A DNA stretch of 64,000 nucleotides from Bradyrhizobium roseum (GTDB lineage Bacteria; Pseudomonadota; Alphaproteobacteria; Rhizobiales; Xanthobacteraceae): contig NZ_CP129212.1 of NCBI RefSeq assembly GCF_030413175.1, forward strand, positions 1,302,001-1,366,000. Direction: 5' to 3'. Below are positions 24,642-52,807 of the stretch, one piece after another. The translations under genes and the position numbers were made by a program. Positions within the stretch are counted from its first letter, which is position 1. Every line of letters begins with the position of its first letter. A model generated the notes under the pieces. The model worked only from the letters and a program-made list of their open reading frames with translations. It was not told the DNA's origin and made no database searches.

Positions 24642-24716
24642 GCTCCCTTCGTCTAGCGGTTAGGACGCGGCCCTCTCAAGGCTGAAACAGGGGTTCGATT
24701 CCCCTAGGGAGCGCCA
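24642..24716 (+). tRNA. tRNA-Glu (anticodon CTC)
   Basis: Full cloverleaf: acceptor GCTCCCT / AGGGAGC, D arm with AGCGGTTAGGAC, anticodon loop CTCTCAA reading CTC, T arm AGGGG-TTCGATT-CCCCT, and an encoded CCA end (24714-24716). No second copy of its 3' end was found in the window, so I see no sign that it is the integration site. Confidence 0.95.
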
Positions 24717-24970
24717 GCAATTTCAAATAGTTAGATTTAGTTTGGAAATGTCGTCGAATATCCGTCGAATAAGCCTCGGCGAGCATTGGCGAACGCGGGT
24801 TGCTAGTCACTCTGCTGGCCGAAGCTTATGCTCGCGTTCAGCGTCGTTTGTATCTGACGCGCTGACTGACCTATCCGCTGCGCAATAAGTCGCGCACAGG
24901 CGAATGCATGCTTTGCGTTTCGAACGGCAACGAATCCTCGCTGCGCCGGCCCCACTGCCTCACCGTTAAA

Positions 24971-25015
24971 CTACGAATCTGGGGGTCAGGAGTTCGAATC
25001 TCTTCGGGCGCGCCA
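24971..25015 (+). other. 3' fragment of tRNA-Arg(ACG): probable attachment-site remnant
   Basis: CTACGAA (anticodon loop, ACG) is followed by a variable region, T arm AGGAGTTCGAATCTCTT and acceptor end CGGGCGC-G-CCA, as in the 3' half of tRNA-Arg(ACG). The 5' half is absent: the preceding bases do not pair with the anticodon stem. A 3' tRNA fragment without its 5' half is what tRNA-targeting integrases leave at one end of an island. The accessory region begins directly after it. Confidence 0.75.
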
Positions 25016-25354
25016 TTTAATTCAAACACTTGCAACAAATCGCCGTTTGAGAAATCGAAACTAAAACGGTTTTTCAAACGGTGTTTTTACTGCTTTAGAG
25101 CACATTGATCTCACTCAACCAATGAGAACTGAAAGGCGTCCAGTTCGACTGCAACAGTCCTGAGTTCGCGGTTCGATCGGCCGGCCGGACGACGGCGGCG
25201 GCGGCACTATGCACTGATAAGCGCGCGCGGCTCCGCGGAAGGTCACGCTTCGCCGCACATTCAACGCTTCCTATGTTTGGCGCGCCACCGGCGAGTGAAC
25301 AATTTGCCTTCCTCCTATGCATGCTCTTACAGGACGGCCCCAGAAGGCGGCTTT
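25016..25354. other. Non-coding stretch between tRNA-Arg fragment and transposase fragment
   Basis: 339 nt without a supported gene. Lower GC in the first 90 nt. I see no intact integrase, which would be expected near an attachment site. Confidence 0.5.
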
Positions 25355-25569
25355 TGAACGTGGGGATCACCCCGTGGGGCAAGCGCATCTACAAGCGCCG
25401 CAAGGAGACGGTCGAACGCTCCTTTGCAGATGCCAAGCAACTCCATGGTCATCGCTACGCGCGCTTTCGGGGTCTGCTCGCCGTCACTTGCCAGTGCCTG
25501 CTCGCCGCAGCCGCCCAGAACATCAAGAAGATCGCTCTCGCCCTGGCGCTCCGCCCCGCCTGGGCCTGA
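25355..25569 (+). pseudogene. IS1182-family transposase fragment, C-terminal end
   Basis: About 70 codons reading NVGITPWGKRIYKRRKETVE, then RSFADAKQLHGHRYARFRGL and QCLLAAAAQNIKKIALALAL. The RKETVERSFADAKQLHG block is the end of the DDE domain in IS1182-type transposases. The catalytic N-terminal two-thirds are gone and no terminal repeats were found. Confidence 0.8.
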
Positions 25570-25667: not shown

Positions 25668-26177
25668 CATGCCTTACAAGTCATTCGCACTCTATGCGAA
25701 CGAAAACCATTGTTTCGCAACGGGTTAGAGAAATTCCGGCTCGAACTACCAAGCTCTCCCAAAAACTCCGCGGCACAAAACTGGCACAAAACGGCACAAA
25801 AATTTCGACGTAAAGTCAGCCCCAAAGCGGCAGTTCGAGCGATGCTTTTTGGGTCGTCATGCATGCCTGTGGCGCCAACCTACGCATCAAGGCGAACCAA
25901 GTCCGACGCCCCGTTTGGAATCGTTGAGCAGCAGCGCGCCGACGGCATCCACGTCGAGGTCTGCGCCTTGTCTTTGCGAGCGCGATGTTGCGCCAACAAT
26001 GCGAAGTCCCTCGACCATTTCGGTCGCGCACAGCGCAGAAGTGCTCCTTGTGCTGTTGTCGTCTGCCCGCGACCAAGGAAGGCAAGGCGAGCGGTATAAC
26101 TTGCCGCTTCCCTGATACTCTAATTTCCGCTTTGCTCGGTGGAACTCACCTTCACCAGCGCTGCGCGTCAAAGGCAA
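25668..26177. other. Upstream region of the STAND operon
   Basis: 510 nt without a supported gene. At 25770-25798 the unit GGCACAAAA occurs three times in close succession. The operon promoter probably lies at 26060-26170; no -35/-10 pair stands out. Confidence 0.45.
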
Positions 26178-28526
26178 ATGCCGAAAAAGAAGAAAACATC
26201 ATCAGGGGGAAAGGCCGAAGCATCCGGGGGCAATTACGAGACGCTGGTTGCCACGTGGTACGCCCATGCGGCGCTACTCGGTGGTGGCGCACATCCGCCA
26301 TTTGACCTCGACGCTGGCACGCAGATCGTGTCGTTCGCCTGCCAATCGGAGGCGCCCGTCGACGACGTCAACGCGGTCACTAGCCACGCCGGTATCATCT
26401 TCGTTCAGGCCAAGCGCAGTGTCGCTATGAGTTCGGCCGCGACCTCAAGCTTTGCTGGCGCTCTCGACCAATTCGTGCGGCAGATAAAAGCAAGCGCCGC
26501 CGCTGACTCCAAGCACGCCTGGTCGCGACCGCTTGATTCATCACGTGACCGGCTCGTTCTTGCAACCCCCAGCACCAGTTCGTCGAAAGTTATCGTGACG
26601 CTGCCGGAGCTTCTGCGCCGCGTACGAGATCGCAGCGACGTGCGCACGCTGAAACAAGTGGCCGTGTCACAGTCTGAGAGGGATGTAGCGAAGACGGTAG
26701 AGACCAATCTTAAACGCTCCTGGAAAGCCGCCTATCGCAAGAGTCCGACGGATAAGGAGCTCAATGCGCTGCTTCGGCTGATCTGGGTGCATCAGCTTGA
26801 CCTCGAAAGTGGCGGACGAGACAGGAAGTTCATTCTTGAGCAGTTTCGCGCAAACCTGTTGGAGGACGCCACGCAGGCCAGCTTGGCTGTCTCGGAATTG
26901 TTCAAGCTGGCAGCGCGCCTCCGCGCTGAACGATCAGGAGCGGACCGGTCTACGCTCCTACAGTTGCTCGCCCGTGCCGGGATTCGGCTTACGGCACTTC
27001 CCGACTTTCGCGGTGATGTCGCTGCTCTAAGGAGATGGACGGCAGCCCGTCTTGAGCCTGCGCCTAGCTTTACTAGACTTCTCGCCGACGATCCGAAGCT
27101 GACAATTGAGCGGGCTGCGTGGCCCGAATTCCGGGATGCCGCAACCTCTCAATCACTGTTGCTTGTGGGAGAGCCGGGAGCTGGAAAAAGCGGTCTTATG
27201 TATCGGCTCGCAGCAACCGCGATCGCGGCCCAGCAGGATGTCGTATTTCTTCCGGTCGATCTGCTGAATGTTGATACATTCTCTGGTCTTCATGCCGAAC
27301 TCGGCATTAGCCACGGCCTGGTCGAAGTTCTCGACAACTGGCCGGGCTCGAAGCCGGGCCTGCTCATTTTGGATGCGCTCGATGCGGCCCGAAAGCCAGA
27401 AACGCAGAAATTATTGCGCGAGGTGGTCGGAGCGGTTCTCAGGTTGCCCGGTTCGCGTTGGAGGGTGATCGCGTCAGTTCGCAAGTACGACCTTCGTCAG
27501 GGCACCGAATGGTCAATGATGTTTCGCGGCCAACCGCCGATACCGGCACAGGCCGATCGCGAATTCTCTCGGGTCTGTCACGTTTCGGTCGGTCGGTTGG
27601 CGGATCACGAGATACTCCAGATCGCAGAGTTGTTCCCAGCTCTGGGGGCGCTTTATAGCGCCGCTTCCCCAAAGCTGCGCGATTTGCTCCAAAACATCTT
27701 CAATCTGCACTTGCTGGCTGATTTGCTTCGCGCCGGCGTCGCTGGTTCGGACTTGAGCGCAATCACCACCCAGTCGGAACTTCTCGACAGCTATTGGCGC
27801 CATCGCATCCGTCGGGCTGACGGAAAACACGACTCGCGCGAAGCTACGTTGACCACCGTGGTGAACGCGATGATTGACGCACAAGTTCTTCGTGTCCTGC
27901 GCGCCGACGTCCGCACCGAGGTTGATACCGATGCATTGGTCGACCTGGAGCGCAACGGAATTCTTCGCGCTGAGGATCAGGGTGGACAGCCCGACGAAAG
28001 CGTGCTGCTGTTCAACCATCACGTCCTGTTCGACTATGCCGTGGCACGGCTCGTGTTCGGGCGCGGAAGGGATGCTGTTCGACTGGTCGCGCTTTTGCGT
28101 GCGCGTCGCGAGCTTTCGCTCATGCTTAGTCCCAGTCTCGTGCTGGCGCTATCAGATGCGTGGAATACCGGTGATGGTCACGCGCTGTTCTGGAATTTGG
28201 CATTCGCGTTAGGGCAGGAAACCGGATTGCCCGGCGTCGCGCTACTCGTCGCTCCTATGGTTGCCGTTGAACAGACAAGGGACTTGGGCGACCTGCAGCC
28301 CATCTTTGATGCGCTGAATGGTCCGGAACCACGCAAGAGCGCCGCCGAACAGGTCGTACAAAACATGATAGGCGCGCTTTTCGTTCGCAAGAATGCGGGC
28401 GTGCCCTTGCTGGGCCCGGACGCAGGCCCATGGATGCAGTTCGCCGAGCGGCTGGCGGCGATAGGTTCGGACCGGTTGATGTTGGCTTTGCGCGCATTAA
28501 TTGCCACGGCAGTGGAGGCGCTATGA
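26178..28526 (+). CDS. STAND-type NTPase with N-terminal nuclease-like domain (Avs-like)
   Basis: 782 residues. The N-terminus (about 20-130) looks like a PD-(D/E)xK nuclease of the Gln variant: the Asp of APVDDVNAV and, after a hydrophobic strand, IIFVQAKRS. An NTPase core follows: Walker A LLVGEPGAGKSGL (about 330-340) and Walker B GLLILDALDAARK (about 394-404), then WRVIASVRKYDL as a sensor-like strand. The remaining ~350 residues are helical. This order (nuclease, STAND NTPase, helical sensor) is that of antiviral STAND proteins. I use ATG 26178 (MPKKKKTSSGG); an in-frame start lies 39 nt upstream. Its stop overlaps the next ATG (ATGA), so the two are translationally coupled. Confidence 0.8.
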   Translation: MPKKKKTSSGGKAEASGGNYETLVATWYAHAALLGGGAHPPFDLDAGTQIVSFACQSEAPVDDVNAVTSHAGIIFVQAKRSVAMSSAATSSFAGALDQFVRQIKASAAADSKHAWSRPLDSSRDRLVLATPSTSSSKVIVTLPELLRRVRDRSDVRTLKQVAVSQSERDVAKTVETNLKRSWKAAYRKSPTDKELNALLRLIWVHQLDLESGGRDRKFILEQFRANLLEDATQASLAVSELFKLAARLRAERSGADRSTLLQLLARAGIRLTALPDFRGDVAALRRWTAARLEPAPSFTRLLADDPKLTIERAAWPEFRDAATSQSLLLVGEPGAGKSGLMYRLAATAIAAQQDVVFLPVDLLNVDTFSGLHAELGISHGLVEVLDNWPGSKPGLLILDALDAARKPETQKLLREVVGAVLRLPGSRWRVIASVRKYDLRQGTEWSMMFRGQPPIPAQADREFSRVCHVSVGRLADHEILQIAELFPALGALYSAASPKLRDLLQNIFNLHLLADLLRAGVAGSDLSAITTQSELLDSYWRHRIRRADGKHDSREATLTTVVNAMIDAQVLRVLRADVRTEVDTDALVDLERNGILRAEDQGGQPDESVLLFNHHVLFDYAVARLVFGRGRDAVRLVALLRARRELSLMLSPSLVLALSDAWNTGDGHALFWNLAFALGQETGLPGVALLVAPMVAVEQTRDLGDLQPIFDALNGPEPRKSAAEQVVQNMIGALFVRKNAGVPLLGPDAGPWMQFAERLAAIGSDRLMLALRALIATAVEAL

Positions 28527-31153
28527 CCGCGACCCCGGATCAAATGATCGCAGTCGGAAAAGCCGCGCGGGATCTTTTGCGCTTCGCTTGGACGCGAACG
28601 CCCCGGTTCGAGCTGATGATCGCCAACGGTCTCATTGCCGTAGGAAAGACCTTTGCCGCAGATCCTTCAGAGTCGGCCGCGTTACTCAAGCAAGCGATCG
28701 AGCCCGGACACTTGAAGGATCACGGTTATAAAGAACTGAGATGGATAGCTCATGAGATCAGGGGTATTGCGAAGGGTGATCCTGGCCTGGCCATAGATAT
28801 TTATCGTGCAGCCTACGGTTATGTAGAAGTCTCCGGCGACGCTACGAACATTGGCAATAGTGCGATTCTGCCGCTTCGCTCCAACAGGCGGCAAGATTAT
28901 GAGGGAGCCTGGTTTCAGTTGTCGGAAGCCATCCCCGCCTTGCTGAATGACAATCTTGAGGCGGGTGTCCGCGCCGTTGTTGTCGGCCTGCATGGCTACG
29001 TGGAACGAGAGCGTCGCCGTCTCCCCCGTCCCGGCGAGCTATCGACGGAGTCGTTCCCTCTCGGTCCCACCACGGCGAGTTTCAAGGCCGATTTGAGTTG
29101 CTCCTGGTATCGTGGCGGATATCAGCCGATGCAGGACGGGCCGGTACTGCTGAAAAAGTTTGACGCATTCCTGGAAGGTCTTGCGAGCGATGCCGACGCC
29201 CAGGGCAAAATTGAACGAATACTTTCGACCCTCTCGCGTGAACCGGATGTACCTGCGGCCATCTGGGGAAGTTTGCTGGTTGCCGGCACGAGGCATCCGT
29301 CGATCTACGGACACCAGCTCGTTCCGCTGGCCTGCGCCGCACCGATCATGATGAGTTCCGATACGCGGTACCAACTGGGAACGTTTATCGGCGCTGCATA
29401 CGCACATCTCGCCGAGCCCAAACGCGGTGCGATCGAACACGCAATCTTGTCGTTGCCAAGCGATCGAGCCGGCGACGGAAGTAAGGCCGCGCTGATCGGT
29501 TGTATTCCGAAGGAGGCAATCGCAAGCGCGGAAATGCGCACATTCATCGAGACATTGGAACAAACAGGGGCAACGCGCCCGAACACGCAGCCCGTTCGAT
29601 TCACAAGCTCATCGCGCCCCTTCGATACGGATGCCTATTTGGCGTCGGAAGGCGTTTCGCTCGATGATCCGGAAAGTGCTGCGCTGCGCGAGACGATGCG
29701 GGACGTCGAAGCGCTGGTTACGTCCGACCGCACGACAGATCTTTCATTGTCTTCCTTGAAACAGCATCTCGTCGTCCTCGATGATGCTCGAAAGGCCTTG
29801 CTCAAGCGTTTTCATGGTCGAGTTCCGGACAAGCTGTTCGAACATGCCATCGGACACGTGGCGTACGTTGCCGGACGTATTGCGCACGCGGCACCGAAGG
29901 TGCTGGCAGAACCTACGGTCAAGACGCCGCTAAAACGCATTTTGCTTTTCTGCGCCGGCAGCGAATATCCGCGCCATGACGCTGAACGCGACGATCAGTT
30001 CCATGAAAATCTGTCATGGGGCGGACAATCGGCTCGCACGGAGGCGGCACACGGGCTGATCGATCTTACGCGTGCATCTCAAAAGCAGGATCGGCAAGTC
30101 ATGACCGCCATCCGCAAACTCGCGAGAGATCGAGTTCCGGAGGTCCGACTTCAAATCATCCAGAACCTGTCAGTGCTTCGCAGCCTCGATCCGAATTGGG
30201 TTTGGTCAGAATTGGAGCATGTTCTTGCGAAGGAGCCGGCGCGAGGTCTCGTGGATAGCGCTATCGGTGCGCTGGCCGCCATCATCTATCAGGACGTTCC
30301 ACGCAGCGTTCGCGCGGCGAAGGGGGTTATCCGCCGCTATCGTAACAAGGAGATGGCGGGGATGGCTGCGTGCCGACTCTCCGCGGCAACCCTTATTTTC
30401 GATATTCATATCCTCGGAACAAATGCCGAGGCCGATAAATTCGCGGAGAGCTTCATCGATGACGTGATAAGCAATGCGGGGAGCATCCAGCATCTTGTCG
30501 CGCGATATTCGGACAAGCTGTTGACTGGAAGCTTAGAAAATCCGCAAGCTAAGGACAATCGACCGCGGCAGAACACTCTGGCCTTTTATCGTACTGTTAC
30601 CGAGCTTGCCTTCTCAGAAATTGAGAAACGCGCCACGGCGCTTGATATCCGCCAGTTCTCGACGTGGCCAGACGCCGACCAGGCAGCGCTCCGCGACATG
30701 GTCGGTATACTCAACGAGGTGGCGCTGAGGCTGTATCTCGCCGCCGGGACGCATTACAACGGCTCCATCCCCCCTGATGATGTCTCTCCGCCGCGCGCAC
30801 GACTGTACTGGGAGACGAAGCCGATCTTGGCTCGCCTCGCCAAGGCAATTGTTGTTCCGGTCGCTCATCATCTTGTTCAGGCGCTTGAGACATTCATCCC
30901 GCTCGATCCTCCCGGTGTTTTCGCGCTCATTGCGCAAGCGGTAAAGTCGGCCGAACAAGGCGGATACAGCGACGAGTCGATGGGCGCGGATCTGATTGTA
31001 CGAATTGTCCAACGATACTTGGCCGACTATCGTGGCGTCTTTGCTGATCGGGCTCGGCTGGACGATCTCATGGATTGTTTGGATGTGTTTGTGCGCGCTG
31101 GTTGGCCCGCGGCGCAGGCCCTGACATTCAAACTCGGCGAGATTTGGCGATGA
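28523..31153 (+). CDS. Large helical-repeat protein of unknown function, second gene of STAND operon
   Basis: 876 residues with no Walker motif or known catalytic signature. The sequence is almost wholly helical. Around residues 530-620, segments such as LARDRVPEVRLQIIQNL and VLAKEPARGLVDSAIGALAA have the look of HEAT/ARM-type repeats. It begins inside the stop of the NTPase gene (ATGA at 28523-28526). That coupling argues for a partner of the NTPase, perhaps its ligand sensor or scaffold. I do not recognise a family. Confidence 0.7.
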   Translation: MTATPDQMIAVGKAARDLLRFAWTRTPRFELMIANGLIAVGKTFAADPSESAALLKQAIEPGHLKDHGYKELRWIAHEIRGIAKGDPGLAIDIYRAAYGYVEVSGDATNIGNSAILPLRSNRRQDYEGAWFQLSEAIPALLNDNLEAGVRAVVVGLHGYVERERRRLPRPGELSTESFPLGPTTASFKADLSCSWYRGGYQPMQDGPVLLKKFDAFLEGLASDADAQGKIERILSTLSREPDVPAAIWGSLLVAGTRHPSIYGHQLVPLACAAPIMMSSDTRYQLGTFIGAAYAHLAEPKRGAIEHAILSLPSDRAGDGSKAALIGCIPKEAIASAEMRTFIETLEQTGATRPNTQPVRFTSSSRPFDTDAYLASEGVSLDDPESAALRETMRDVEALVTSDRTTDLSLSSLKQHLVVLDDARKALLKRFHGRVPDKLFEHAIGHVAYVAGRIAHAAPKVLAEPTVKTPLKRILLFCAGSEYPRHDAERDDQFHENLSWGGQSARTEAAHGLIDLTRASQKQDRQVMTAIRKLARDRVPEVRLQIIQNLSVLRSLDPNWVWSELEHVLAKEPARGLVDSAIGALAAIIYQDVPRSVRAAKGVIRRYRNKEMAGMAACRLSAATLIFDIHILGTNAEADKFAESFIDDVISNAGSIQHLVARYSDKLLTGSLENPQAKDNRPRQNTLAFYRTVTELAFSEIEKRATALDIRQFSTWPDADQAALRDMVGILNEVALRLYLAAGTHYNGSIPPDDVSPPRARLYWETKPILARLAKAIVVPVAHHLVQALETFIPLDPPGVFALIAQAVKSAEQGGYSDESMGADLIVRIVQRYLADYRGVFADRARLDDLMDCLDVFVRAGWPAAQALTFKLGEIWR

Positions 31154-31176
31154 TGGACGGCAAATAGAGAACGGGC

Positions 31177-32235
31177 ATGGCCATGAGGTTTTCATTCGAT
31201 CCCGATTTGATTGCCAACGCCCGTCAGCTCATTCTCCACAACCCAGGCCTCAACATGCTTAGGCCGGAGCATGAGGGCCAATATTCCCCTTTGGTTGTCG
31301 CAATCGAAGCGGAACTCAAGAAGCGTGACGCCGCCGGACTGCTGCTGTTGCCTGATTTGAGTGCGCTCGCGAACAGCACGGTTGGAATTTTCTCGGACTA
31401 TGGTGGCGAACACTCCTCCAGCAGCTATCTCACATACTCGTTTCTGATATGCGCTTGGGGCTCGCTGGATACATTTCGGATGAAGATGAAGGAGCTCCGC
31501 TCAGAATGCGGGCTCGGAGACAAGGAGATTGAATTTAAGGATTTTGGGATGGGCGTTGTGCGCAACGCGCTGCTGCCCTATTTGGACGTTCTCAACGGAT
31601 ATGTACCCGGGCTTCTCTTCACCGTCGTCGTGCACAAGCGCATTGTCTCGCTGTTTGGCCCGCAAGGCAGGTCGACCGGAAATGCTTTGGTCAAAAGGCT
31701 AGAAGAGCAAGGCTTTGGAAAACTTAAGCCTCAGGTCGCGGAAAAAGCACTTCGCGTCGTTCATACGGCCGCATTCTTGACCGCCTTGCTCGGGCACGAG
31801 CGACAGAAAATTTTCTGGATGTCGGATCACGACGCGATTTGTCCCGATCTGAAAGCGCACAACCGTTTGCTTGCGCTCTTTCATAACGTCCTCAATCTCT
31901 ACACGTCACGTCAATTCGGCCTCATCGGAGGCGCGCTGCCGTTCAGTGAACGCAGCACCGATTACCTTGATCTGTTGAGCGCGGCCGATATCGTCGCGGG
32001 CTCGGTCGGTCAATACTTTACGGACCGCGACAAGGTCGGTGAGCGCAATGCTAGCGTCAAAGAAGGAGCCGAAAAGATTCTTGTTTGGCTTGGGCACGAC
32101 GGACTTGCACTGAAGAAGTTGTGCATCCAGCTCTGTCTTGACGAGGACGGCAAGATTCGGTTCGGCGCCATTGAATTTGAACCTAAGCGAACGCGCGACA
32201 CGATCACATTCCTGCCCGTTCACTGGTGCCGGTAG
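31177..32235 (+). CDS. DUF3800-like protein, third gene of STAND operon
   Basis: 352 residues. The first ~65 residues are helical; a DUF3800/RNase-H-like core then begins with VGIFSDYGGEHSSSSYLTYSFL. EIEFKDFGMG, KIFWMSDHD and STDYLDLLSAADIVAGSV supply the spaced acidic residues expected for metal binding. DUF3800 proteins are common in defence islands but have no settled activity. Starts 23 nt after the helical-protein gene, same strand, so it closes the operon. Confidence 0.7.
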   Translation: MAMRFSFDPDLIANARQLILHNPGLNMLRPEHEGQYSPLVVAIEAELKKRDAAGLLLLPDLSALANSTVGIFSDYGGEHSSSSYLTYSFLICAWGSLDTFRMKMKELRSECGLGDKEIEFKDFGMGVVRNALLPYLDVLNGYVPGLLFTVVVHKRIVSLFGPQGRSTGNALVKRLEEQGFGKLKPQVAEKALRVVHTAAFLTALLGHERQKIFWMSDHDAICPDLKAHNRLLALFHNVLNLYTSRQFGLIGGALPFSERSTDYLDLLSAADIVAGSVGQYFTDRDKVGERNASVKEGAEKILVWLGHDGLALKKLCIQLCLDEDGKIRFGAIEFEPKRTRDTITFLPVHWCR

Positions 32236-32386: not shown

Positions 32387-33241
32387 ATGAGTAGAGAAAC
32401 GGCAGGTCTTCTAAACCAGCTCGCCAGCAAACTCCCCGAAGGAATGCTGGTGGACGCTGCTTGGCTGAAGGCTCAAGGGTACTCGACCCAACTGCAACAT
32501 CTCTACGTGAAATCTGGCTGGCTCGAACAACCCGCGCGCAGCGTCTTTCGCCGGCCCCGTGGAGCATTGAGCTGGCAGCAGGTCGTCATATCGCTCCAGA
32601 CCATCCTCAACTATTCGCCGCTCGTCGTCGGTGGACGCACCGCACTCGAATTGCAGGGGTACGCCCACTACCTCGCGCAATCGAGCACGACCGTCCATCT
32701 CTACGGTCCCAAAGCGCCACCTGCATGGGTTCACAAACTGCCGCTCAAGGTCAAGTTCGTCTATCACAACGATCGACGGCTCTTCAAAAACGACCCCGTC
32801 ACCAAAGGCCTCGGCAGTCTCAAATGGAATGTCGATACAGGCGAGGCGCGTGATGTGGCGGGCTTGCATGGCGGCGACATAACCGCATTGAGCTGGGGCC
32901 AGTGGGATTGGCCTTTGACGCTATCGACGCCTGAGCGTGCACTATTCGAGATGCTCGATGAGTTACCCAATCACGAGACCTTTGAGCAGGTCGATGCCCT
33001 GTTCGGCGGCCTCGCCAATTTGCGCCCCGTTCGTTTGCAAAAGCTCTTGAAGGATTGCTCCAGCGTTAAGGTCAAGCGCCTGTTCTTCTACTTTGCTGAC
33101 CGACACAGGCAGCCCTGGCTCAAGCGACTCGACAAGGAAGCCGTCGATTTGGGCAGCGGCAAGCGTATGCTCGTCAAAGGCGGCGTCCTCGACCCCACCT
33201 ACCACATAACGGTTCCTGAGGATCTGAATGGCGTTCGCTGA
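32387..33241 (+). CDS. abiEi: AbiEi-family antitoxin (type IV toxin-antitoxin)
   Basis: 284 residues. The N-terminal winged helix (LASKLPEGMLVDAAWLKAQGYSTQ in pieces, then VKSGWLEQPARSVFRRPRG) binds DNA; the C-terminal antitoxin domain includes VVGGRTALELQGYAHYL and LSTPERALFEMLDELPN. It represses the operon and counteracts AbiEii without forming a stable complex. The ATG lies only 8 nt after the probable -10 box, with no Shine-Dalgarno, so the message may be leaderless. Its 3' end overlaps abiEii by 14 nt. Confidence 0.88.
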   Translation: MSRETAGLLNQLASKLPEGMLVDAAWLKAQGYSTQLQHLYVKSGWLEQPARSVFRRPRGALSWQQVVISLQTILNYSPLVVGGRTALELQGYAHYLAQSSTTVHLYGPKAPPAWVHKLPLKVKFVYHNDRRLFKNDPVTKGLGSLKWNVDTGEARDVAGLHGGDITALSWGQWDWPLTLSTPERALFEMLDELPNHETFEQVDALFGGLANLRPVRLQKLLKDCSSVKVKRLFFYFADRHRQPWLKRLDKEAVDLGSGKRMLVKGGVLDPTYHITVPEDLNGVR

Positions 33242-34175
33242 CATCTACAAACGGCAAGTCGCCCTGCTGATCCGCGTTCTTCCTCTGGTCACCGAGGAGG
33301 AGTGTTTTGCCCTCAAGGGCGGGACAGCGATCAATCTGTTTGTTCGCGATCTTCCGCGCCTCTCCGTCGATATTGATCTTACCTACTTGCCGGTAGCACC
33401 ACGCGCAGAATCTCTCGCGGATATCGATGCCGCTATGAAGCGTATCGCCGGCAAGATCAAAGTCCTCATTCCGGACGCCCAGATCACCGAAGCCAAGACC
33501 GAAAACGCCGTCGTCAAACTGACCGTTCGTTCCCAAGGCGTTCAGATCAAGATTGAGGTAACGCCCGTTCTGCGCGGTTGCGTGTTCGAACCCAAGCTTG
33601 TGTCTGTCAAGCCCGCAGTCGAAGAAGAGTTTGGCTTTGCCGAGGCGCGGACTGTGTCCTTCGAAGACCTTTATGCCGGGAAAACCGTTGCTGCCCTGGA
33701 CCGCCAGCATCCCCGTGATCTCTTTGATGTGCGCGACCTGATCGCGAACGAAGGTATCAGCGACGCTTTACGCAAGGCCTTTATCGTCTATCTGCTCAGC
33801 CACGACCGCCCCATGTCGGAGGTGTTGGCGCCGACCCTCAAGAATATTGAGCCGGCGTTCAAGCATGGCTTCTCGGGAATGACACGCGATCCTGTGGAGC
33901 TTGCCGATCTACTTGCCGCCCGTGCGACGTTGATAAAGTCCATCGTGGGCGACATGCCAGCCGATCATCGCAAATTCCTCATCTCGTTTGAGCGTGGCGA
34001 GCCCGACTGGGATCTGTTAGGTGTGCCCAATGCGGCGGAACTTCCCGCGGTGCGCTGGCGGCAGAAGAATCTCAACAAACTCTCAGCGAACAAGCGTGCC
34101 GTCCTCGTCGCGAGGCTTGAAGAGGTGCTCGCCGACCCTGGGACCGAACCAGCACAAACGACACCCCCAACTTGA
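33228..34175 (+). CDS. abiEii: AbiEii/AbiGii-family nucleotidyltransferase toxin
   Basis: 315 residues. The nucleotidyltransferase signature is FALKGGTAINLF followed by RLSVDIDLTYL, giving the GG and DxD metal site; LYAGKTVAALDRQHPRDLFDV is the second family block. Toxins of this family transfer nucleotides to essential RNA (tRNA in studied members) and cause growth arrest or abortive infection. Overlaps abiEi by 14 nt, which fits coupled translation. Confidence 0.9.
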   Translation: MAFADIYKRQVALLIRVLPLVTEEECFALKGGTAINLFVRDLPRLSVDIDLTYLPVAPRAESLADIDAAMKRIAGKIKVLIPDAQITEAKTENAVVKLTVRSQGVQIKIEVTPVLRGCVFEPKLVSVKPAVEEEFGFAEARTVSFEDLYAGKTVAALDRQHPRDLFDVRDLIANEGISDALRKAFIVYLLSHDRPMSEVLAPTLKNIEPAFKHGFSGMTRDPVELADLLAARATLIKSIVGDMPADHRKFLISFERGEPDWDLLGVPNAAELPAVRWRQKNLNKLSANKRAVLVARLEEVLADPGTEPAQTTPPT

Positions 34176-34190
34176 TCTCAATAGCGGTCT

Positions 34191-36497
34191 ATGAAGCGGC
34201 GAAGAACCGATCAGCACGGCAAGCCGAGAAAGCCGCATCCAAAGTCGGAGCCCGGCCTCAAGCTGTTTCGGCGCCCGTTATCAACCGCTGAGCCTGCCGC
34301 CATTCGGGCGGCGTTTCTCAAGATGGCGGACCGCAAGACCGAGCAATTCCCCGCGCTTATTAAGACGATCCTACAAGGCTTTCGCGAGAGATATCCGCCG
34401 CACATAATCGCGGTGATGGCGGGGTACGGTCTAACCGCCCCCGTCTCGGATGCTGGCGTTTCCGCTAAACGGCTCACCCCAAAGATCGAGCAGCATCATA
34501 TCGAGCTGCTTCAGGCGCTGATGCTGATGCTTCCCATCTCGGAGTGGGGCGAACCGCCTGCATCACCAGCCGATATCCAAAAGATAATCGACTCGATTGT
34601 TGATCTCGCCGATGCATTTTTTGCGCGCCGCTTCAAAGCCATCGAAGAAGCGTCCGATCTCCAAGCCCGGACGGTTTTGGCGCTTCAGGAGAGACTGCGC
34701 ATGCATACGCAAATGGTGCGAAATTGGGGTTATTTCTCCGAAGTCGTGCAGATCTCATCCGAGCTCTATGCACCCTTGGATGATGCGTTTCGTAACGCCC
34801 ATGGCTTTGCCGCGTCCGATCTTATCGCTACGGGCCGACATCTCGTTCGGTTGCTCGAAGATCGCAATACCGAGAACTTCAAGCGGTTAAAGCTCGCCTT
34901 TCGTGAGAGGACGATCCCGCGCTTGGTTCGGGCCTTCTTCAAACATCATCCCGAGATGAAGGAAGACGCCGAGCAATTCCTGCGCGCCATTCCGGACGAC
35001 GTGACGCTTGAACAAGTCAAGTTCAGACTCTTGGCGCACGCTAGCATTTCGTTGGTGGTCGCTATGAGCTTCGCCGCCCAACAAGTGGCGCAAAGCTCCG
35101 GGCTTACCGTGGACACAACCGGCGCCGTATTAGATGCATTGTCGCTGCATCCTGGCGACCTAAGTGGTCAGGACCCAGAACGACTATTTATGGCCAATCC
35201 AGTCTGGCGTTCTCCTGTCCTCAAGGTCGGCAGTGCTTATTTTTGCCCAGCGCCGCAGAGTCTCTTCAGCCACATCCACGAGGTGATGCGCTCGCTCGCA
35301 GACAAGATAGGCTTAAGCAAGAGCCTCGAAAGTCGGCGCGCCGCATATCTCGAAGATAAGGTGAAGAGACTGCTCTCCGAGGCATTACCGACGGCTCAAT
35401 TCCGTCACGGCATCAAATGGCGCAGCGATGAGGTCGAATATGAAACCGACCACGTCGCGGCTATCGACAAAACCGTTGTGATCATTGAGGATAAATCAGC
35501 GGCATTAACGGCGCCGGGATTGAGAGGCGCACCCGACCGCGTCCGGCGGCATGTCACCGACCTTATCGTCGCGCCATCAGAGCAGTCGAGTCGCCTCGAG
35601 AATATCATCTGGGAGGCGAAAGCCGGAGACCGCAATGCGGCCGCAACCCTAACGCCTTTCGGCCTTGACTTCGCCGGCACTGAGCGAGTTGTCCGCATCT
35701 CGGTGACGCTGGACGATTTCTCCATACTCGCGTCGGCCGAAGGCGAACTGAAAGAGGCCGGCTGGATTCCCCGTTCTCTGATGTTGGCGTCGACGCTCAA
35801 TGTCGCTGATTTTCAAGCGGCCATCGATATACTAGGAAGGCCTGCCTATTTCCTTCACTACTTTGCGGAGCGGGGACGACTACAAAGAGCGCTCCGGATT
35901 TTTGCGGATGAGATGGATTTTCTAGGTTTCTATCTCGATACAGGTTTCAACGTTGGCGATCTCGAAAAGGAGAACGTCTCACTCGCTCTGACAGGAATGT
36001 CGGCGGCCGTCGATCACTATTACAACAGCCGGGACGCAGGCGTTGTGGTTCGAAAGCCGACGCCGAAACTTAGTCCCTATTTTTCGGCGCTCATCAGCGC
36101 GATCGAGAGCCGCGCGTTTGCAGGCTGGACGACGGTGACGACGGACCTGTTGCGATGTGCGAGTTGGGAGGAGCAGAGGAAGGCCGAGAAGATCCTGGCG
36201 AAGCTGAAGAAGCAGGTCGAGCGCGACTGGCGTGATCCGGAAAATGAATGTTCACTTGTCATCAGTCCGCCCGAGGCACGCGATACGGCCGTGGTGTTTT
36301 ACGCATATCCGCCGCAGCATGCCACGCGCCGGGATAAAATAGCGGAAGAGCTGGCATCCAAGGCATTTGAGATGAGTGGTCGGCAAAGGTGCATAATGAT
36401 CTGTCGAAACACTGCGCAATGGGATGAGCCCTACAAATCGATCTTCATCTTTCACGCGGCCGCCGATCAAGCTGATGACGTCTTCCCACTCTCGTAA
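34191..36497 (+). CDS. Large protein with a PD-(D/E)xK-like nuclease core
   Basis: 768 residues, no recognised family. Around residues 418-440, EVEYETDHVAAIDKTVVIIE runs into DKSAAL: an Asp, a turn, a hydrophobic strand and E-x-K, the arrangement of a PD-(D/E)xK nuclease centre. The flanking DRVRRHVTDLIVAP helix fits the same fold. The N-terminal 380 residues are helical, and the C-terminal ~280 contain ISPPEARDTAVVFYAYP and CIMICRNTAQW. It starts 16 nt after abiEii on the same strand, so it may ride on the AbiE transcript. Confidence 0.65.
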   Translation: MKRRRTDQHGKPRKPHPKSEPGLKLFRRPLSTAEPAAIRAAFLKMADRKTEQFPALIKTILQGFRERYPPHIIAVMAGYGLTAPVSDAGVSAKRLTPKIEQHHIELLQALMLMLPISEWGEPPASPADIQKIIDSIVDLADAFFARRFKAIEEASDLQARTVLALQERLRMHTQMVRNWGYFSEVVQISSELYAPLDDAFRNAHGFAASDLIATGRHLVRLLEDRNTENFKRLKLAFRERTIPRLVRAFFKHHPEMKEDAEQFLRAIPDDVTLEQVKFRLLAHASISLVVAMSFAAQQVAQSSGLTVDTTGAVLDALSLHPGDLSGQDPERLFMANPVWRSPVLKVGSAYFCPAPQSLFSHIHEVMRSLADKIGLSKSLESRRAAYLEDKVKRLLSEALPTAQFRHGIKWRSDEVEYETDHVAAIDKTVVIIEDKSAALTAPGLRGAPDRVRRHVTDLIVAPSEQSSRLENIIWEAKAGDRNAAATLTPFGLDFAGTERVVRISVTLDDFSILASAEGELKEAGWIPRSLMLASTLNVADFQAAIDILGRPAYFLHYFAERGRLQRALRIFADEMDFLGFYLDTGFNVGDLEKENVSLALTGMSAAVDHYYNSRDAGVVVRKPTPKLSPYFSALISAIESRAFAGWTTVTTDLLRCASWEEQRKAEKILAKLKKQVERDWRDPENECSLVISPPEARDTAVVFYAYPPQHATRRDKIAEELASKAFEMSGRQRCIMICRNTAQWDEPYKSIFIFHAAADQADDVFPLS

Positions 36498-39720: not shown

Positions 39721-42700
39721 TCAGCCGCGCCTCGCCCGAGAGCTCTTTTCCGAAGACAGTCGAGGTCTCAAGTCCAATCCCCTTGCCATCAGCTTTGCCG
39801 TCCCTCCGAGTTCCCTGGATATTCGTTCCGCTTCATCGTTCAGGAGGGACATCAGTTCTTCGAACCCGATGAGCTTGCGGGTCTGGGGATGCTCCCACTC
39901 GCGGACCTTTGCGATCGTCACGAGGAGACATCCTGCCCGGCACTCGTCGGCGGCCATGTACTTGGTCAAAAGTTGATCGTGGATCGTGTTGAACAGGTCG
40001 GTGCCGGAACGCTCATCGCCGAGTTTGAGTTCAATCGTTCCTTGCTGTCCGGATGCAGTCGATCGAAACCGAATGTCGGTCTCCTTCTCATCCGCCGTTA
40101 CCGCCTCCTGATCGATGGTGTAGTTTTGCCTGGCGGCGTCCCGGAGGACGCCGGCTAATGCTCGCCGCATCACGTGCTCGTCTCTGATGCTGGCCCATAG
40201 TTCGCGTGGCGAAACATCCTGAAGCAACAGGTCGTCAATGTCATCGAGACGATCCTGCATGAGCGCAAACATCGCTTCGCGGGTCTTTGGCGGCGCCTCT
40301 CCGGTCTTGTCGAGAATTGAGAATTCGGCCTCCGCCAGCGCAACGCTGTCCGCTTCCTCCGCCGCTTTTTGCTGTGCGAGCGCCATGGTGCGGTCCTTGA
40401 TGTGCGCAAACAACGGATCGCCAGCCATTTCGATCTTTGCCGCCCAGCCTTGGGGGCCAGTTGAAGCAAACAGCGCGCTTAAGATTGCGCTCCGCCCCCG
40501 CTCGGCATGGTCTCGGGTGTCGAGTGAATGTGACCCTTCATGCTGCGTATCGTCGCCTATCCGAACTTGGACATAGGCGAGCCGGAGAAGACGAAGCAAA
40601 AGCTGTGGTCCAAATCCAGGCCCGTGGAGATCGAAGCCAAGACCGCCGTATTCGTGGCCGAAAAGGTCCGCAAATAACTGAACGCCGGAGCCCAGCTTGG
40701 CGGCCGGCGTATTCGCGAGCTCCTTTTCCAGGACATCGACGCCTGCGCCCGGATTTAGGTTTAGAAGCGCCGGCAACCACACCTTCGCGAAAGGAACGGT
40801 GAGTCCCCCAGCGAGACGTTGCTGTGCGGCTAACTCTATGAAACGGCGATCATCATCGGTACCCGATTTGACCAAGATTTCGATCGCCTGACGCAGGTTT
40901 TGCTCATACTGCTGATCGTTGGGGCGAGTCTCGCTCTGCGCCACCTCGGCCAACCAAGCGCGGATACGTGGAACAAAGAGTGCGGCTATGATGGCCGGTG
41001 CATGATTGATGTTCTGCAGGAACATTGAATAGCCGTTTGTGCTCGCGACCTCGCGCAGAGACAGGCTGAGCTCCTGACCAAGGACACGGTCCACGGCTTG
41101 CGGATACTCGACGGCAACTGTTTCGAGCCACGACGGAAAGCTGTTGAACTCCAGCGGCGCGTAACGGCAGGCGAGTTCAGCTTCGCTCTCCGTCAACCGC
41201 TTCGCCCAGTTTGGGTCTTCCGCCTCCGCTGCAATCCCGGCTAGACCAAACTGCCATCGAACGAGGAACGTGTTTTCCTCTCCTTCGGCACGTTCGCTGC
41301 GCAGTGTCGGTCGATCCTTGCGCCAAGCAGCCATCATGGTTTCGCGAAGCCGGTCAGCGACAGTCGCACCGAACTGTTCTTGGATGAAGCGCCGGTTCCA
41401 TCCCGAAGCGCGACTTTTTTCGCCGGAGCGCTCGACCGCTCGCCATAAGTCCCAAGCCGTGCCTTCAGCCCGATCCGCAGTAAAAACGGCGTCCGGATTT
41501 TGCACGATCTCACGCCAGAACGTCCCCCAACTCGCATGTGCCTTGGCTGTGCGGCGTTCGGCCTGCTTTGCCTGTTTTGCTCGCTCCGCCTCCATACGGC
41601 GGTATTCGGCAGAGCCCTCTTGCGGCTTCAGGCGATTATCGATGATTGTCGCGAGGACAGACGAATCCGAAACAAGCGGCTTGAGGCTTTCAAGCAGCGT
41701 CCGGTGATCGGTCATGTTGGTTGTGAGCAAGACCATCTCGGCCCACAGCATCATCTCGCGATGATCGAGTGGCTCCTGACTGTCGGCGAGGCGTTTTCGA
41801 ACCCACGCAGCATCCTTGTCGCTGAGCTGGATGCCACCATGGTGGGACAAGTCGAAGATGCGCTGCCAGGCGTCCTGAACCTTATGAATCGTCGCGACAA
41901 AAGCATTTTCCGTCCAAAAGGCCGTCTCTCGAGCCTCCGGAGAAAGTTCTCGGATCGCGCGTCGCAATCCGGCGAGAGCTTGCTGGTCAGTGCCATGCTC
42001 ATCTTTTGAGAGCCGAATTGCGAGCAAGCTCGACGAAATCCATGCTTCCGTTCGGACGCCTTCAGCTGCCTGCCGGTGGCATGTTGCTATGAGCGTCGGC
42101 AACAGCTCGTAGCGTTTCGTTCGTAGATGCGGGTATTTGTCACGGGCCCACGCGATTCCATCAAGGATCAGATCCGTCAGCGCTTGGCGCAATTCATCAA
42201 GATCCTCGGGTGAGAGGCCCGCGGTCTCAATCTCGTGTGGCAGACGGTGATTTAGTTCGCCGATACCACGGGTATTCTGCCTCACGCGCTTCAATATGCG
42301 TGACAATCGGCTTACCGAGAGGTGGGTGGGGAATAAGGTGATCAGCGCACGGCGGGCCATCGCGTCAGGCCACCGAGCAGGCTCGTTTTCGAGCGAGTCT
42401 GCCAGTGCTTCGAGATGCTTGTCGTTCAGTTGCACCAAGGCTTCCGTTGCGAGACTTCGTTCATAGTCATCGCCGGCAGCATCCATCGCAATCGCATAAG
42501 CGATATCCGCACAATCCTTTAGCTTTCCGGCAATGACGATCCGGAGCAAAAGGCTGCGCACTTCCGGATTCTCGATCCCGGAATTCCACAGCCGCCTAAC
42601 ACTCGGCGCAAGTTCCGGCGAAGCGAACCGATGAACCTGAATTTCCGGGGTGCTGAGGCCCCGCCAGCCGCCGCGGCCGTAGCGCTCGACATAAGCGTCG

Positions 42701-44079
42701 AGCGCTCTGATCCGCTGGGCCGTGCTCAGCGACTGCGGGTCACCGTGATCCAAAACGACCGCCGGATCGAGTTCCACGATATCATCAAAGATGGTGTGGT
42801 GCCAAAGAGCCAGCCACGCGGCCACCGGATGCATTGACGGACGGACCGTCCGTGCCCCCTGCGCCGTCTCTACGAACAAGAGCCGCTTGATGGACTTGAT
42901 CGAAACACCGCGGGTAAGCAAGGCGTCGAGGCGCTTCGCGGCAAGAAATTCGAGCACGGACCGGTGGTGAAATCGAACGCGGCCATAGCTGGCGAAACCA
43001 AACAGCGCGCGCTCCAGGAGGACCGATTGCGCCGCGTCGCTCCAGTCCAGCAAAATCTTGGAAACGTCCAGCGCTGCCTCGCTTGCGTGGATGCTGTCCG
43101 CATCTGCCGAGTGGCGCAGGGTAAGCTTTCGGGTCAGCAGCGCAGCGAGAGCCAGGCGGCTGGAGCCTTCAATCGCCGTGTCTTGCGATAACTCCACTCT
43201 CTCCTTCGGGTCCGTCCTCGGCTTCAGCTTGGTGGCGATGTTGCTCTCAACCTGTTCCCGATGGGAACGAATGCGATGATGCTCGCGCCAATCGGAGCAC
43301 AACTCGATCAAATCCTGTGGGCGTTCCGCGAATTGTTCCGCATCGCGCTCCCGAATGTCGGCCAGCAATTTATCGGGATCGGTTACGCCTTGGAGCACGG
43401 CAAATTCGCCCATCTGCTCTGTCGACAGCGGCATCAGGCTGACATTGCGCCATGGTTTTGGCCTCGTTTCGTCTTTGGTCTTTTGTTGGTTCCGGTCCAT
43501 CACCATGTCGGCGAACGCTTCGGCTGTAGAAGTCGCGTTTCGCGCAGTTGGAATCGGCAAATGTTCTGCAAAAAGCTCGCGGTCGATAGGTACTGGCCGC
43601 GTCGTGACGATTATTCTCGCGCGTCCGAGCTGGCCGGCCAGCGCCTTGTTGAGACGTTTCAGCGCTTGCTCAAAGCTCCCAAGCGTCAGCTTAAGTTCGT
43701 CGTAGGAGTCCAGGAAGAAGGTCGCCATCTCGGATTGGGAGCGTAGCCACGCGTCGAAGCGCTGTTCCTCGTCATAAGTCAGCATGTCGCGGACCGAACT
43801 GCCGGCCAGCGTCGCGAGTTCAAGAAAGAACGCTGGTTCGCCGTCCTTCCAGAGTCTGGCCTGCTGTGTTTGGCACTCGTAAGTCTTTCCCGCGCCAGCT
43901 TCGGACACCATGACGACGCGTTGCGAAAGCAACAGCTCGTCCCAGCCAAAACCACCGCTCCAGCCCATGCGCGCGAGGGTTGAAGCCCTTTCGATATCCG
44001 CGACCTCGACATCCGACAGATCTCGAAACGAACGCTTGATGGATGATGGGGTGGAGGCAGCAGTGGCGATTGGTGTCAT
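39721..44079 (-). CDS. Giant STAND-type NTPase with C-terminal PD-(D/E)xK nuclease-like domain
   Basis: 1452 residues. Walker A VSEAGAGKT (about 58-66), Walker B ATFFLDSYDEL (119-129), and ARIIVTTRPVPID as the following strand place it among NACHT/STAND NTPases. A ~1150-residue helical region follows, the likely sensor. The C-terminus (about 1328-1400) reads KETDIRFRSTASG, TIELKLGDERS, DQLLTKYM: Asp, E-x-K and Gln/Lys in PD-(D/E)xK order. In known antiviral STANDs the nuclease is N-terminal, so this layout is reversed. It converges with a DUF3800 gene. The function is inferred as phage-triggered nuclease. Confidence 0.8.
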   Translation of the reverse strand: MTPIATAASTPSSIKRSFRDLSDVEVADIERASTLARMGWSGGFGWDELLLSQRVVMVSEAGAGKTYECQTQQARLWKDGEPAFFLELATLAGSSVRDMLTYDEEQRFDAWLRSQSEMATFFLDSYDELKLTLGSFEQALKRLNKALAGQLGRARIIVTTRPVPIDRELFAEHLPIPTARNATSTAEAFADMVMDRNQQKTKDETRPKPWRNVSLMPLSTEQMGEFAVLQGVTDPDKLLADIRERDAEQFAERPQDLIELCSDWREHHRIRSHREQVESNIATKLKPRTDPKERVELSQDTAIEGSSRLALAALLTRKLTLRHSADADSIHASEAALDVSKILLDWSDAAQSVLLERALFGFASYGRVRFHHRSVLEFLAAKRLDALLTRGVSIKSIKRLLFVETAQGARTVRPSMHPVAAWLALWHHTIFDDIVELDPAVVLDHGDPQSLSTAQRIRALDAYVERYGRGGWRGLSTPEIQVHRFASPELAPSVRRLWNSGIENPEVRSLLLRIVIAGKLKDCADIAYAIAMDAAGDDYERSLATEALVQLNDKHLEALADSLENEPARWPDAMARRALITLFPTHLSVSRLSRILKRVRQNTRGIGELNHRLPHEIETAGLSPEDLDELRQALTDLILDGIAWARDKYPHLRTKRYELLPTLIATCHRQAAEGVRTEAWISSSLLAIRLSKDEHGTDQQALAGLRRAIRELSPEARETAFWTENAFVATIHKVQDAWQRIFDLSHHGGIQLSDKDAAWVRKRLADSQEPLDHREMMLWAEMVLLTTNMTDHRTLLESLKPLVSDSSVLATIIDNRLKPQEGSAEYRRMEAERAKQAKQAERRTAKAHASWGTFWREIVQNPDAVFTADRAEGTAWDLWRAVERSGEKSRASGWNRRFIQEQFGATVADRLRETMMAAWRKDRPTLRSERAEGEENTFLVRWQFGLAGIAAEAEDPNWAKRLTESEAELACRYAPLEFNSFPSWLETVAVEYPQAVDRVLGQELSLSLREVASTNGYSMFLQNINHAPAIIAALFVPRIRAWLAEVAQSETRPNDQQYEQNLRQAIEILVKSGTDDDRRFIELAAQQRLAGGLTVPFAKVWLPALLNLNPGAGVDVLEKELANTPAAKLGSGVQLFADLFGHEYGGLGFDLHGPGFGPQLLLRLLRLAYVQVRIGDDTQHEGSHSLDTRDHAERGRSAILSALFASTGPQGWAAKIEMAGDPLFAHIKDRTMALAQQKAAEEADSVALAEAEFSILDKTGEAPPKTREAMFALMQDRLDDIDDLLLQDVSPRELWASIRDEHVMRRALAGVLRDAARQNYTIDQEAVTADEKETDIRFRSTASGQQGTIELKLGDERSGTDLFNTIHDQLLTKYMAADECRAGCLLVTIAKVREWEHPQTRKLIGFEELMSLLNDEAERISRELGGTAKLMARGLDLRPRLSSEKSSRARRG

Positions 44080-49222: not shown

Positions 49223-50338
49223 TCATATAGGTAGATCCAACTGAGGAGCGCTGCTTTCCTCGTTCTGAAGAGAAGACAAAGATATCCCAAGTAGTCGCAC
49301 CGACTTTGGCAGCGGCATCTCTGCCTGCAGTAGGCTAATCGCAATACGCGCCAGCTCGTCCCGACTAGAAATCGGGTCCGAAACGGATCGTGCACGCGTG
49401 ATAATCTCAAAGTCAGAGAACTTGACCTTCAGCGTTACCGTTCGCCCACGGTTGCCAGTGGTCTCGCAATGCCGCCAGACTTTGTCGGCTAAGGGCCGCA
49501 ATTCGCCGACCATGGCGTCGAAGTCGACCAGGTCGCTGGAGAAGGTGTTCTCGGCGCCTACAGACTTGCGGATTCGATCGGCACGCACGGGGCGATCGTC
49601 GACGCCGCGCGAGATGTAGTAATAGTAGGCGCCGGACTTGCCGAAATTTTCTTGCAGAAAGGCAAGTGTTTGATTGCGAATGTCGAGGCCGGTGAAAATC
49701 CCCAACGCGTTGAACTTCGCGCTTGTCGCAGGGCCGATGCCGTGAAATTTGCCGACGGGCAGCGTCTCCACGAATGCAGCGCCCATTTCCGGCGAGATGA
49801 CGTACTGGCCGTTCGGCTTTCTGTGGTCGGAGGCGAGTTTGGCTAGGAATTTATTGTAGCTGATACCAGCCGACGCGTTAAGGTCGGTCTCGGCCTTGAT
49901 CTTCTCGCGTATCCGCAGTGCGATGTCGCGCGCCAGAGGGATCGCCTGAATGTTTTCCGTGACGTCGAGATAAGCCTCGTCCAACGATAACGGCTCGATG
50001 ATGGCGGTGTGCTCGGCGAAGATGTCGCGGACCTGCCGGCTGATCGCCTTGTAGACCTCGAATCGCGGTTTCACGAATATCAAGCCTGGACATAGCCGCT
50101 TCGCAGTCACCGACGGCATAGCCGATCGGACGCCGAACTTTCGAGCCTCGTAGCTTGCAGCGGCCACGACGCCGCGCTCCGCCGAACCGCCGACAGCCAC
50201 CGGCTTGCCGCGAAGGGCTGGGTTGTCCCGCTGTTCGACCGAGGCATAGAATGCATCCATGTCGACGTGGATGATCTTGCGAGGGCTCGCAGCGGCGGCC
50301 GGGTGTTGCTGCTCCAATTCGTTCATGAGCGATGCCAT
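49223..50338 (-). CDS. dinB: DNA polymerase IV (Y-family)
   Basis: 371 residues. IIHVDMDAFYASVEQRD and PLSLDEAYLDVT hold the catalytic Asp and Glu residues; GVVAAASYEARKFGVRSAMP is the family steric-gate region, and GKFHGIGPATSAKF the thumb HhH. The C-terminus ends APQLDLPI, a beta-clamp binding motif. Translesion synthesis and mutagenic repair. Accessory dinB copies beside repair genes are common in rhizobia; whether this is the only one cannot be told. Confidence 0.93.
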   Translation of the reverse strand: MASLMNELEQQHPAAAASPRKIIHVDMDAFYASVEQRDNPALRGKPVAVGGSAERGVVAAASYEARKFGVRSAMPSVTAKRLCPGLIFVKPRFEVYKAISRQVRDIFAEHTAIIEPLSLDEAYLDVTENIQAIPLARDIALRIREKIKAETDLNASAGISYNKFLAKLASDHRKPNGQYVISPEMGAAFVETLPVGKFHGIGPATSAKFNALGIFTGLDIRNQTLAFLQENFGKSGAYYYYISRGVDDRPVRADRIRKSVGAENTFSSDLVDFDAMVGELRPLADKVWRHCETTGNRGRTVTLKVKFSDFEIITRARSVSDPISSRDELARIAISLLQAEMPLPKSVRLLGISLSSLQNEESSAPQLDLPI

Positions 50339-50404
50339 CGAGACCTAAGTCTTGTATCGCGGCGGCTGCGGTCCTTCGAAAAAATGCAACCTCGATCCAA
50401 TCCG

Positions 50405-52558: not shown

Positions 52559-52807
52559 GGCGCGCCCTTTCTTGGCCGGAATCAGAGGATGTTCTACTTT
52601 TGTTCGGAAGTGACATTGAAAGTCAATAGTCGGGCCGATAGGCCCGCTTCCGCACGGACCGCACTGAAGTCCGCGTTCAGCTGCATGCTCCCGTAAGAGG
52701 GGCATCCGCTGCCTACCTTAGTTGTTCGGATGCGTGACTAGTATAATGGACGGCCAGCCGGCGCTCCGGCATATGTCGGTCAGCAGGTTGAGTCCTCGCT
52801 TTAATTC

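Follow-up and report, generated by a model that had tools for sequence, protein, structure and literature searches.

Do three consecutive genes on the chromosome of Bradyrhizobium roseum form a single defence system, or has a smaller system come to lie beside an unrelated gene? The genes occupy positions 26178 to 32235 of a 64,000-nucleotide stretch of contig NZ_CP129212.1 (this whole stretch is referred to below as the window), itself part of a single 7.3-Mb contig. An initial annotation, made from the DNA letters, had grouped all three into one candidate defence system of an unrecognised, multi-gene kind. We find it rather probable instead that genes 1 and 2 make up one two-subunit, Avs-like nuclease-STAND immune receptor, located beside an AbiE module in an island at the side of a tRNA-Glu gene. 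Gene 3, which probably encodes a nuclease-like protein, is best seen as a distinct gene of the island and probably an independent passenger.

Genes 1 and 2 match the two halves of one candidate family

The layout and motifs first described for the locus were confirmed from the sequence. Gene 1 (26178..28526, forward strand) encodes 782 residues and carries the motifs VDDV...FVQAK (residues 61-79), GEPGAGKS (331-338) and LLILDALD (395-402); an in-frame GTG at 26139 would lengthen the product to 795 residues, and most relatives with the same stop measure 776-787 residues. Its stop codon overlaps the start of gene 2 (28523..31153, forward strand; 876 residues) within an ATGA that divides the chain (28523..28526, forward strand) and is preceded by GGAGG 4 nucleotides 5' of the gene 2 ATG. 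Gene 3 (31177..32235, forward strand; 352 residues) follows after 23 nucleotides. All three are real genes. Matches at E <= 1e-3, own protein counted, numbered 125 for gene 1, 42 for gene 2 and 285 for gene 3 (about 8,000 scored candidates each). Nonsynonymous and synonymous divergence (dN/dS; NG86 method, with dS near saturation) came to 0.119/1.06 for gene 1 and 0.180/1.35 for gene 2 against the related locus L001, and to 0.152/1.24 for gene 3 against L118; genes 1 and 2 both evolve under purifying selection.

The first two genes align end to end with a single PADLOC model, PDLC04700 (PDC-M54A, 1657 positions), gene 1 covering model positions 2-771 (E 4.3e-194) and gene 2 positions 780-1657 (E 1.4e-164). 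By homology, then, they are halves of one catalogued candidate family rather than an unrecognised multi-gene variant, and that family is usually found as one chain: among the best 80 of at least 91 confirmed loci from species-representative genomes, 68 encode PDC-M54A as a single uninterrupted frame exceeding 1,500 residues (in one of the 68, L024, the N-terminus is broken or not in frame). Within the genus, the gene 1 profile finds some match in 144 of 265 genomes, mostly short P-loop stretches, and near full-length relatives (E below 1e-190) in 10. Nine of these ten are open frames of 1,626-1,775 residues; the split occurs only in the genome of the window.

Gene 1 is predicted to join a nuclease to a STAND NTPase

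The N-terminal domain of gene 1 is predicted to be a PD-(D/E)XK-type nuclease. Profile-profile comparison of this slice with Cap4_nuclease gave a probability of 47.6 and E 1.9e-4 against a template of only 3 sequences, while a control slice from the STAND region gave 0.1 and E 0.52. A direct Pfam search of gene 1 with Cap4_nuclease returned no match at E <= 1. The likeness to the Cap4/DUF4297 nuclease (PF14130) lies in the order of motifs, G-x-x-[YF]-[QE] ... [EQ] ... D ... Q-x-K, and the difference in an acidic residue that has moved from position 56 to position 21 in the window's clade. As judged from column counts and the profile-profile match, the predicted active site (26238..26417, forward strand) comprises E21 and Q56 (the swapped pair), D62/D63 and Q77-x-K79. 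D63 and K79 are invariant in 76 of 76 aligned sequences, and Q77 is present in 75.

The same 76 rows hold Q21/E56 in 41 and E21/Q56 in 28, the remaining 7 being four gaps with E56, A/E, G/E and E/T; a 104-row set holds Q21/E56 in 69 and E21/Q56 in 26, and its other rows are three E/E, one Q/Q, A/E, G/E, E/T and two gapped. The swapped state, E21/Q56, is found in the window's clade and in the fused sequences related to it, L002 and L003; L062/L070 show it separately. Migration of a catalytic acid occurs in PD-(D/E)XK enzymes, and the swap may be read as one such acid moving from one to the other of two positions brought together in the active site. It offers independent evidence that the N-terminal domain of this candidate family is, as predicted, a working nuclease. 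Three loci (L028, L041 and L042) carry Glu at both positions and are possible swap intermediates; L079 carries Gln at both.

The region that follows has the marks of a STAND (NACHT-like) NTPase with a winged-helix-like region behind it. The segment from Walker A (GEPGAGKS) to Walker B (LLILDALD) lies at 27168..27383 (forward strand), and G331, K337, D399, D402, R435, D438, H614 and D619 are likewise invariant in 76 of 76 sequences. R435 and H614 we take to be STAND sensor and winged-helix features, namely the conserved Arg after Walker B and a winged-helix-like His motif. Pfam matches at E <= 1 are weak but recurrent across 31 members (AAA_22 in 26, nSTAND3 in 23, NACHT in 14). The gene 1 profile also picks up FtsY and other P-loop chains (6e-7 and weaker); the gene 2 profile does not. 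These motifs and remote profile matches uphold the nuclease-like N-terminus and STAND NTPase that the initial annotation had placed in gene 1; its further suggestion, that part of the machinery is carried on a separate subunit, is also borne out, with gene 2 as the probable sensor.

Gene 2 resembles the helical C-terminal half of single-chain relatives

Gene 2 corresponds to the C-terminal half of PDC-M54A and is a helical, HEAT-like putative sensor. Pfam gave no match for gene 2 itself, HEAT included; HEAT appeared at E <= 0.1 in 13 of 40 members of the gene 2 family, and the gene 2 profile weakly matches PP2A scaffold HEAT repeats. A solved chain, 9n00_A ('AAA family ATPase', 1523 residues), matches both profiles, with whole-sequence E-values of 4.9e-9 for gene 1 and 2e-9 for gene 2. 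The matching stretches are collinear and run through the STAND domain (172-406), the winged-helix region (441-627) and two stretches beyond (894-1023 and 1207-1304). PDB searches with the single gene 1 and gene 2 sequences gave no match, and a text search of the literature gave no paper for 9n00 and, among those listed for 9n01, none on the structure.

The split seen in the window is old and has been conserved

We aligned the junction in 51 of 119 listed gene 1 relatives. Thirty-four end at the window's point, 7 end 26 residues later, 6 continue past the junction and 4 are truncated or garbled; the window's split point is kept in aligned relatives down to about 55% identity. On the other side, 32 of 41 gene 2 relatives besides the window's own are 869-877 residues long and span all of gene 2. 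These counts show a split that is widespread and constant in position; they do not bear on how frequent it is relative to fusion. In an indirect test of adjacency that pairs clusters by the size of their longest contig, 18 of 41 gene 2 relatives pair with a gene 1 relative (listed clusters: 118 for gene 1, 41 for gene 2, 119 for gene 3). An assembly error was rejected as the cause of the split because it occurs in a one-contig genome, in L001, which has the same ATGA, and in the 34 aligned relatives.

A 104-row tree served to reconstruct the history of the split. It includes the window, L138, 24 of the 119 gene 1 relatives listed and 78 of the 80 loci, L058 (short) and L073 (in many pieces) being excluded. 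The window's split forms one clade of 14 rows (SH-aLRT 91), a split at residue 806 a clade of 5 rows (support 100) and a split near residue 1,255 another clade of 5 rows (support 100). Since fused rows lie on both sides of the split clades, the fused state appears to be ancestral; the ancestor was probably one chain, and fission at the switch-sensor linker would have given the two genes. The tree was built with a quick method, a simple model and a midpoint root, and carries a long-branch warning outside the window's clade.

Across the family, PDC-M54A is cut at differing points, at about residues 713, 769, 782, 806, 1,255 and 1,366. Eleven junctions were read as DNA, from the window and nine loci (the 806 junction is known as protein only). 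Seven are in-frame ATGA overlaps, in the window, L001, L019, L056, one of the two in L063, L072 and L077; that of L060 is GTGA, and L016, L020 and the other junction of L063 break without an overlapping start. The ATGA splits of the Paracoccus and Variovorax relatives (L072:12741-12744 and L077:12738-12741) cut the C-terminal half internally, at about residue 1,255, and form their own clade.

Could the division be a decaying or neutral accident in a system that no longer works? Some family members are visibly broken, L073 lying in many pieces and L016 and L020 having no stop/start overlap. For the window's pair we consider decay very improbable, as the two halves show dN/dS of about 0.11 and 0.13 against L001 and the 34 aligned relatives keep an identical split point down to about 55% identity. 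The split could also be bypassed by a -1 ribosomal frameshift near the overlap that makes a full-length chain as well. The gene 2 frame is open for at least 93 nucleotides upstream of its ATG in the window and for 363 in L001, so that a -1 shift there would fuse the halves. Nevertheless, the 150 nucleotides before the stop contain no X-XXY-YYZ heptamer in L001 and one in the window, at -115 (unshared, its frame unchecked), and the GGAGG before the gene 2 ATG points to re-initiation. With no slippery heptamer found common to the window and L001, programmed frameshifting was set aside as improbable. We conclude from these alignments that the window's split is old and kept, and that it separates the STAND switch of the predicted chain from its helical C-terminal half.

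The usual partner was not found, and gene 3 is probably a passenger

In the catalogue, PDC-M54 has a second component, PDC-M54B, found directly 3' of the A gene in 32 of 72 readable loci (from the 80, leaving out L037, L058, L073 and loci with less than 1,200 bp after the A gene) as open reading frames of about 460-550 residues. The genome of the window has 0 matches to PDLC04706, the one of the four B models run genome-wide, and a 21-sequence B profile found no match in window positions 17001-44000. A cluster of 36 B open reading frames, with some loci present twice, includes L018:13812-15359; across 21 aligned sequences, by L018 numbering, conservation reaches at least 90% at E88, D100, E116-A-K118 and eight Cys. 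These residues suggest that PDC-M54B may be a PD-(D/E)XK nuclease holding a metal or an iron-sulphur cluster. Gene 3 was considered as PDC-M54B and rejected, having no PADLOC match at E <= 1.

The DUF3800-like label first given to gene 3 holds at the level of a remote resemblance. Pfam DUF3800 (PF12686) matched 0 of 19 members of the gene 3 family at E <= 10, whereas alignment of the gene 3 profile with 12 DUF3800 proteins (12 of 17 matched places used) gave a probability of 66 and E 5.4e-5 over 195 columns, against 0.05 for the control. The FSDYGGE, MSDHD and DLLSAAD regions of gene 3 align with the DUF3800 proteins, and D74, E117, K121, D219, D265 and D271 are invariant in 51 of 51 family members. 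An RNase H-like nuclease is a fair guess from these alignments.

If all three genes formed one defence system, gene 3, as a nuclease-like DUF3800 relative, would replace PDC-M54B. It occupies the slot where B starts in the 32 loci, the genome has no B by PDLC04706, and the 23 nucleotides to gene 2 make co-transcription probable. The sole co-occurrence result in favour is a distant gene 3 relative 1.4 kb after the fused A gene of L003; of the 40 readable loci without an adjacent B, no other has one. Against this, gene 3 was found in 4 of 265 genus genomes (its own, G234, G094, where it has an internal TGA, and G156, which has a distant relative only), and it is adjacent to the gene 1 family in one of the four, that of the window; G094 has both, on different contigs. 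Wider surveys found it in 4 of 397 genomes of the order and in 2 of 385 of the class, its own genome counted each time. In G234 its relative (L118) adjoins a Lit-like peptidase gene and then a 1474-residue giant, and in G094 a CHAT protein and a PDC-S51 protein. In L001, which has the same split point, the DNA still aligns up to the end of gene 2 (window 31149) and then not again until some 60 bp short of AbiEi (window 32326). AbiE stands where gene 3 would be, and gene 3 was either gained in the window or lost in L001. None of the 119 listed gene 3 clusters pairs with a listed gene 1 or gene 2 relative by longest contig, and none of the 8 plasmid records with a gene 3 relative is among the 16 that hold a gene 1 relative.

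The initial annotation had counted a failure of the three genes to co-occur against its own grouping; in the survey, genes 1 and 2 stay together and gene 3 does not stay with them. A conserved three-gene operon was rejected on the evidence of the genus genomes, L001 and the longest-contig pairing, and we judge a functional three-gene system in the window unlikely.

The genes lie in an island with a neighbouring defence module

The left edge of the island is marked by a tRNA-Glu (CTC) gene at 24642..24716 (forward strand; ARAGORN). In five of five relatives fetched, similarity to the window ends between 24716 and 24794, which places the end of the conserved chromosome at or shortly after this gene. 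After gene 3 come AbiEi (32387-33241) and AbiEii (33228-34175), both on the forward strand and identified with Pfam and PADLOC, a type IV toxin-antitoxin and neighbouring defence module; in L001 the two follow gene 2 directly.

Other features of the window were noted. By eye, positions 24946-25016, just inside the island, resemble a tRNA 3'-end remnant, and a transposase-like fragment follows near 25317-25569. Directly after AbiEii, 34191-36497 (forward strand) encodes a 768-residue protein without a confident family match. A second giant, of 1452 residues (39721-44079, reverse strand), bears by eye a P-loop SEAGAGKT, FLDSYDEL and a C-terminal ELK-type motif; it has no Pfam or PADLOC match at E <= 1e-3 and has matches in 24 of 265 genus genomes, its own counted. 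In G234 a relative of this giant, with 29.5% identity, lies one gene from the gene 3 relative L118. Further on, a Y-family polymerase gene beside a FAN1-like/exonuclease protein (49223-52705) and an IS66 transposase (54904-56556) lie on the reverse strand.

Discussion

Avs proteins, as described in PMC10907252, usually begin with an effector domain, continue through a STAND core and end in a C-terminal sensor to which phage proteins bind. The window's pair shares this layout, gene 1 having an N-terminal effector domain with STAND motifs, and differs in that the sensor half is on its own polypeptide. It matches no named Avs family (the Avs4 chain 8dgf gave E 0.092). The PDB chains 9n00/9n01/9yix ('AAA family ATPase', 1523 residues) are a collinear remote match over the STAND domain, winged-helix region and C-terminal half, in one chain. 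Relative to PDC-M54 (A models PDLC04700-04702, B models PDLC04703-04706), genes 1 and 2 cover the whole A model in order, but as two polypeptides divided by ATGA and with no B found in the searches above. Avs membership calls for a single chain, and full PDC-M54 membership for a B partner as well; the window's pair has two chains and no B was found, and we file it as a split PDC-M54A variant without B. As far as sequence can tell, it may work like an Avs protein.

We therefore favour a model in which gene 1 would supply effector and switch, as a Cap4-like PD-(D/E)XK nuclease fused to a STAND NTPase, and gene 2 the helical C-terminal half, likely the sensor. Translation of the two looks coupled, through the stop/start ATGA preceded by a Shine-Dalgarno sequence, and the products presumably come together again without a covalent link. 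If the Avs analogy holds, the gene 2 product would bind a phage component; nucleotide exchange and oligomerisation of the gene 1 product would follow, and the nuclease domains, once clustered, would cut DNA, so conferring protection.

Several observations weigh against this model. The protein searches admit lengths of 0.55-1.75 times the query; this bars full-length fused chains and inflates the share of split forms among the gene 1 and gene 2 relatives listed. Most split relatives lie on metagenome contigs whose surroundings are not readable. Independent E-values for the four 9n00_A stretches are modest (in order 2.2e-4, 7.2e-4, 0.6 and 3.5e-5, the 0.6 belonging to a gene 2 stretch), and the alignment of its VDDV...CQCKK (24-76) with the nuclease motif is not significant (E 960) and counts only as a motif seen in alignment. 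The PADLOC Avs2 match covers only 48 residues around the P-loop (E 0.035), and P0032, within the window's clade, has E21/T56. Genes 1, 2 and 3 have no Pfam match at gathering level, and the predicted folds rest on motifs and remote profiles. A literature search for PDC-M54 by name found no paper, and the function of the family is a predicted one.

The receptor might target plasmids or other incoming DNA, or serve host regulation, rather than phage. Gene 1 relatives occur on 16 of 72,556 plasmid records. A phage origin of gene 1 itself was rejected, with no match in 50,697 phage records; viral contigs hold at least 1 gene 1 relative, and 3 relatives of gene 3. The defence-catalogue family, the island position, the AbiE neighbour and the nuclease-like effector speak for phage defence without deciding it, and we regard a non-phage role as unlikely.

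If genes 1 and 2 do form a split receptor, they would represent a bacterial NLR-like receptor naturally cut between switch and sensor, and thus a ready test of how a signal passes from sensor to STAND domain, the halves being open to separate expression, mixing and exchange. Automated annotation of defence genes may overlook such split systems or report them as unknown operons. The repeated cuts at different points, with ATGA at 7 of 11 junctions and GTGA at one, hint that separation may be favoured. More tentatively, then, this clade might use two-subunit STAND receptors with the sensor as a detachable protein, a possibility that we hold to be real but doubtful. Were it true, one nuclease-NTPase could pair with different sensors, or the dosage of the sensor could be set.

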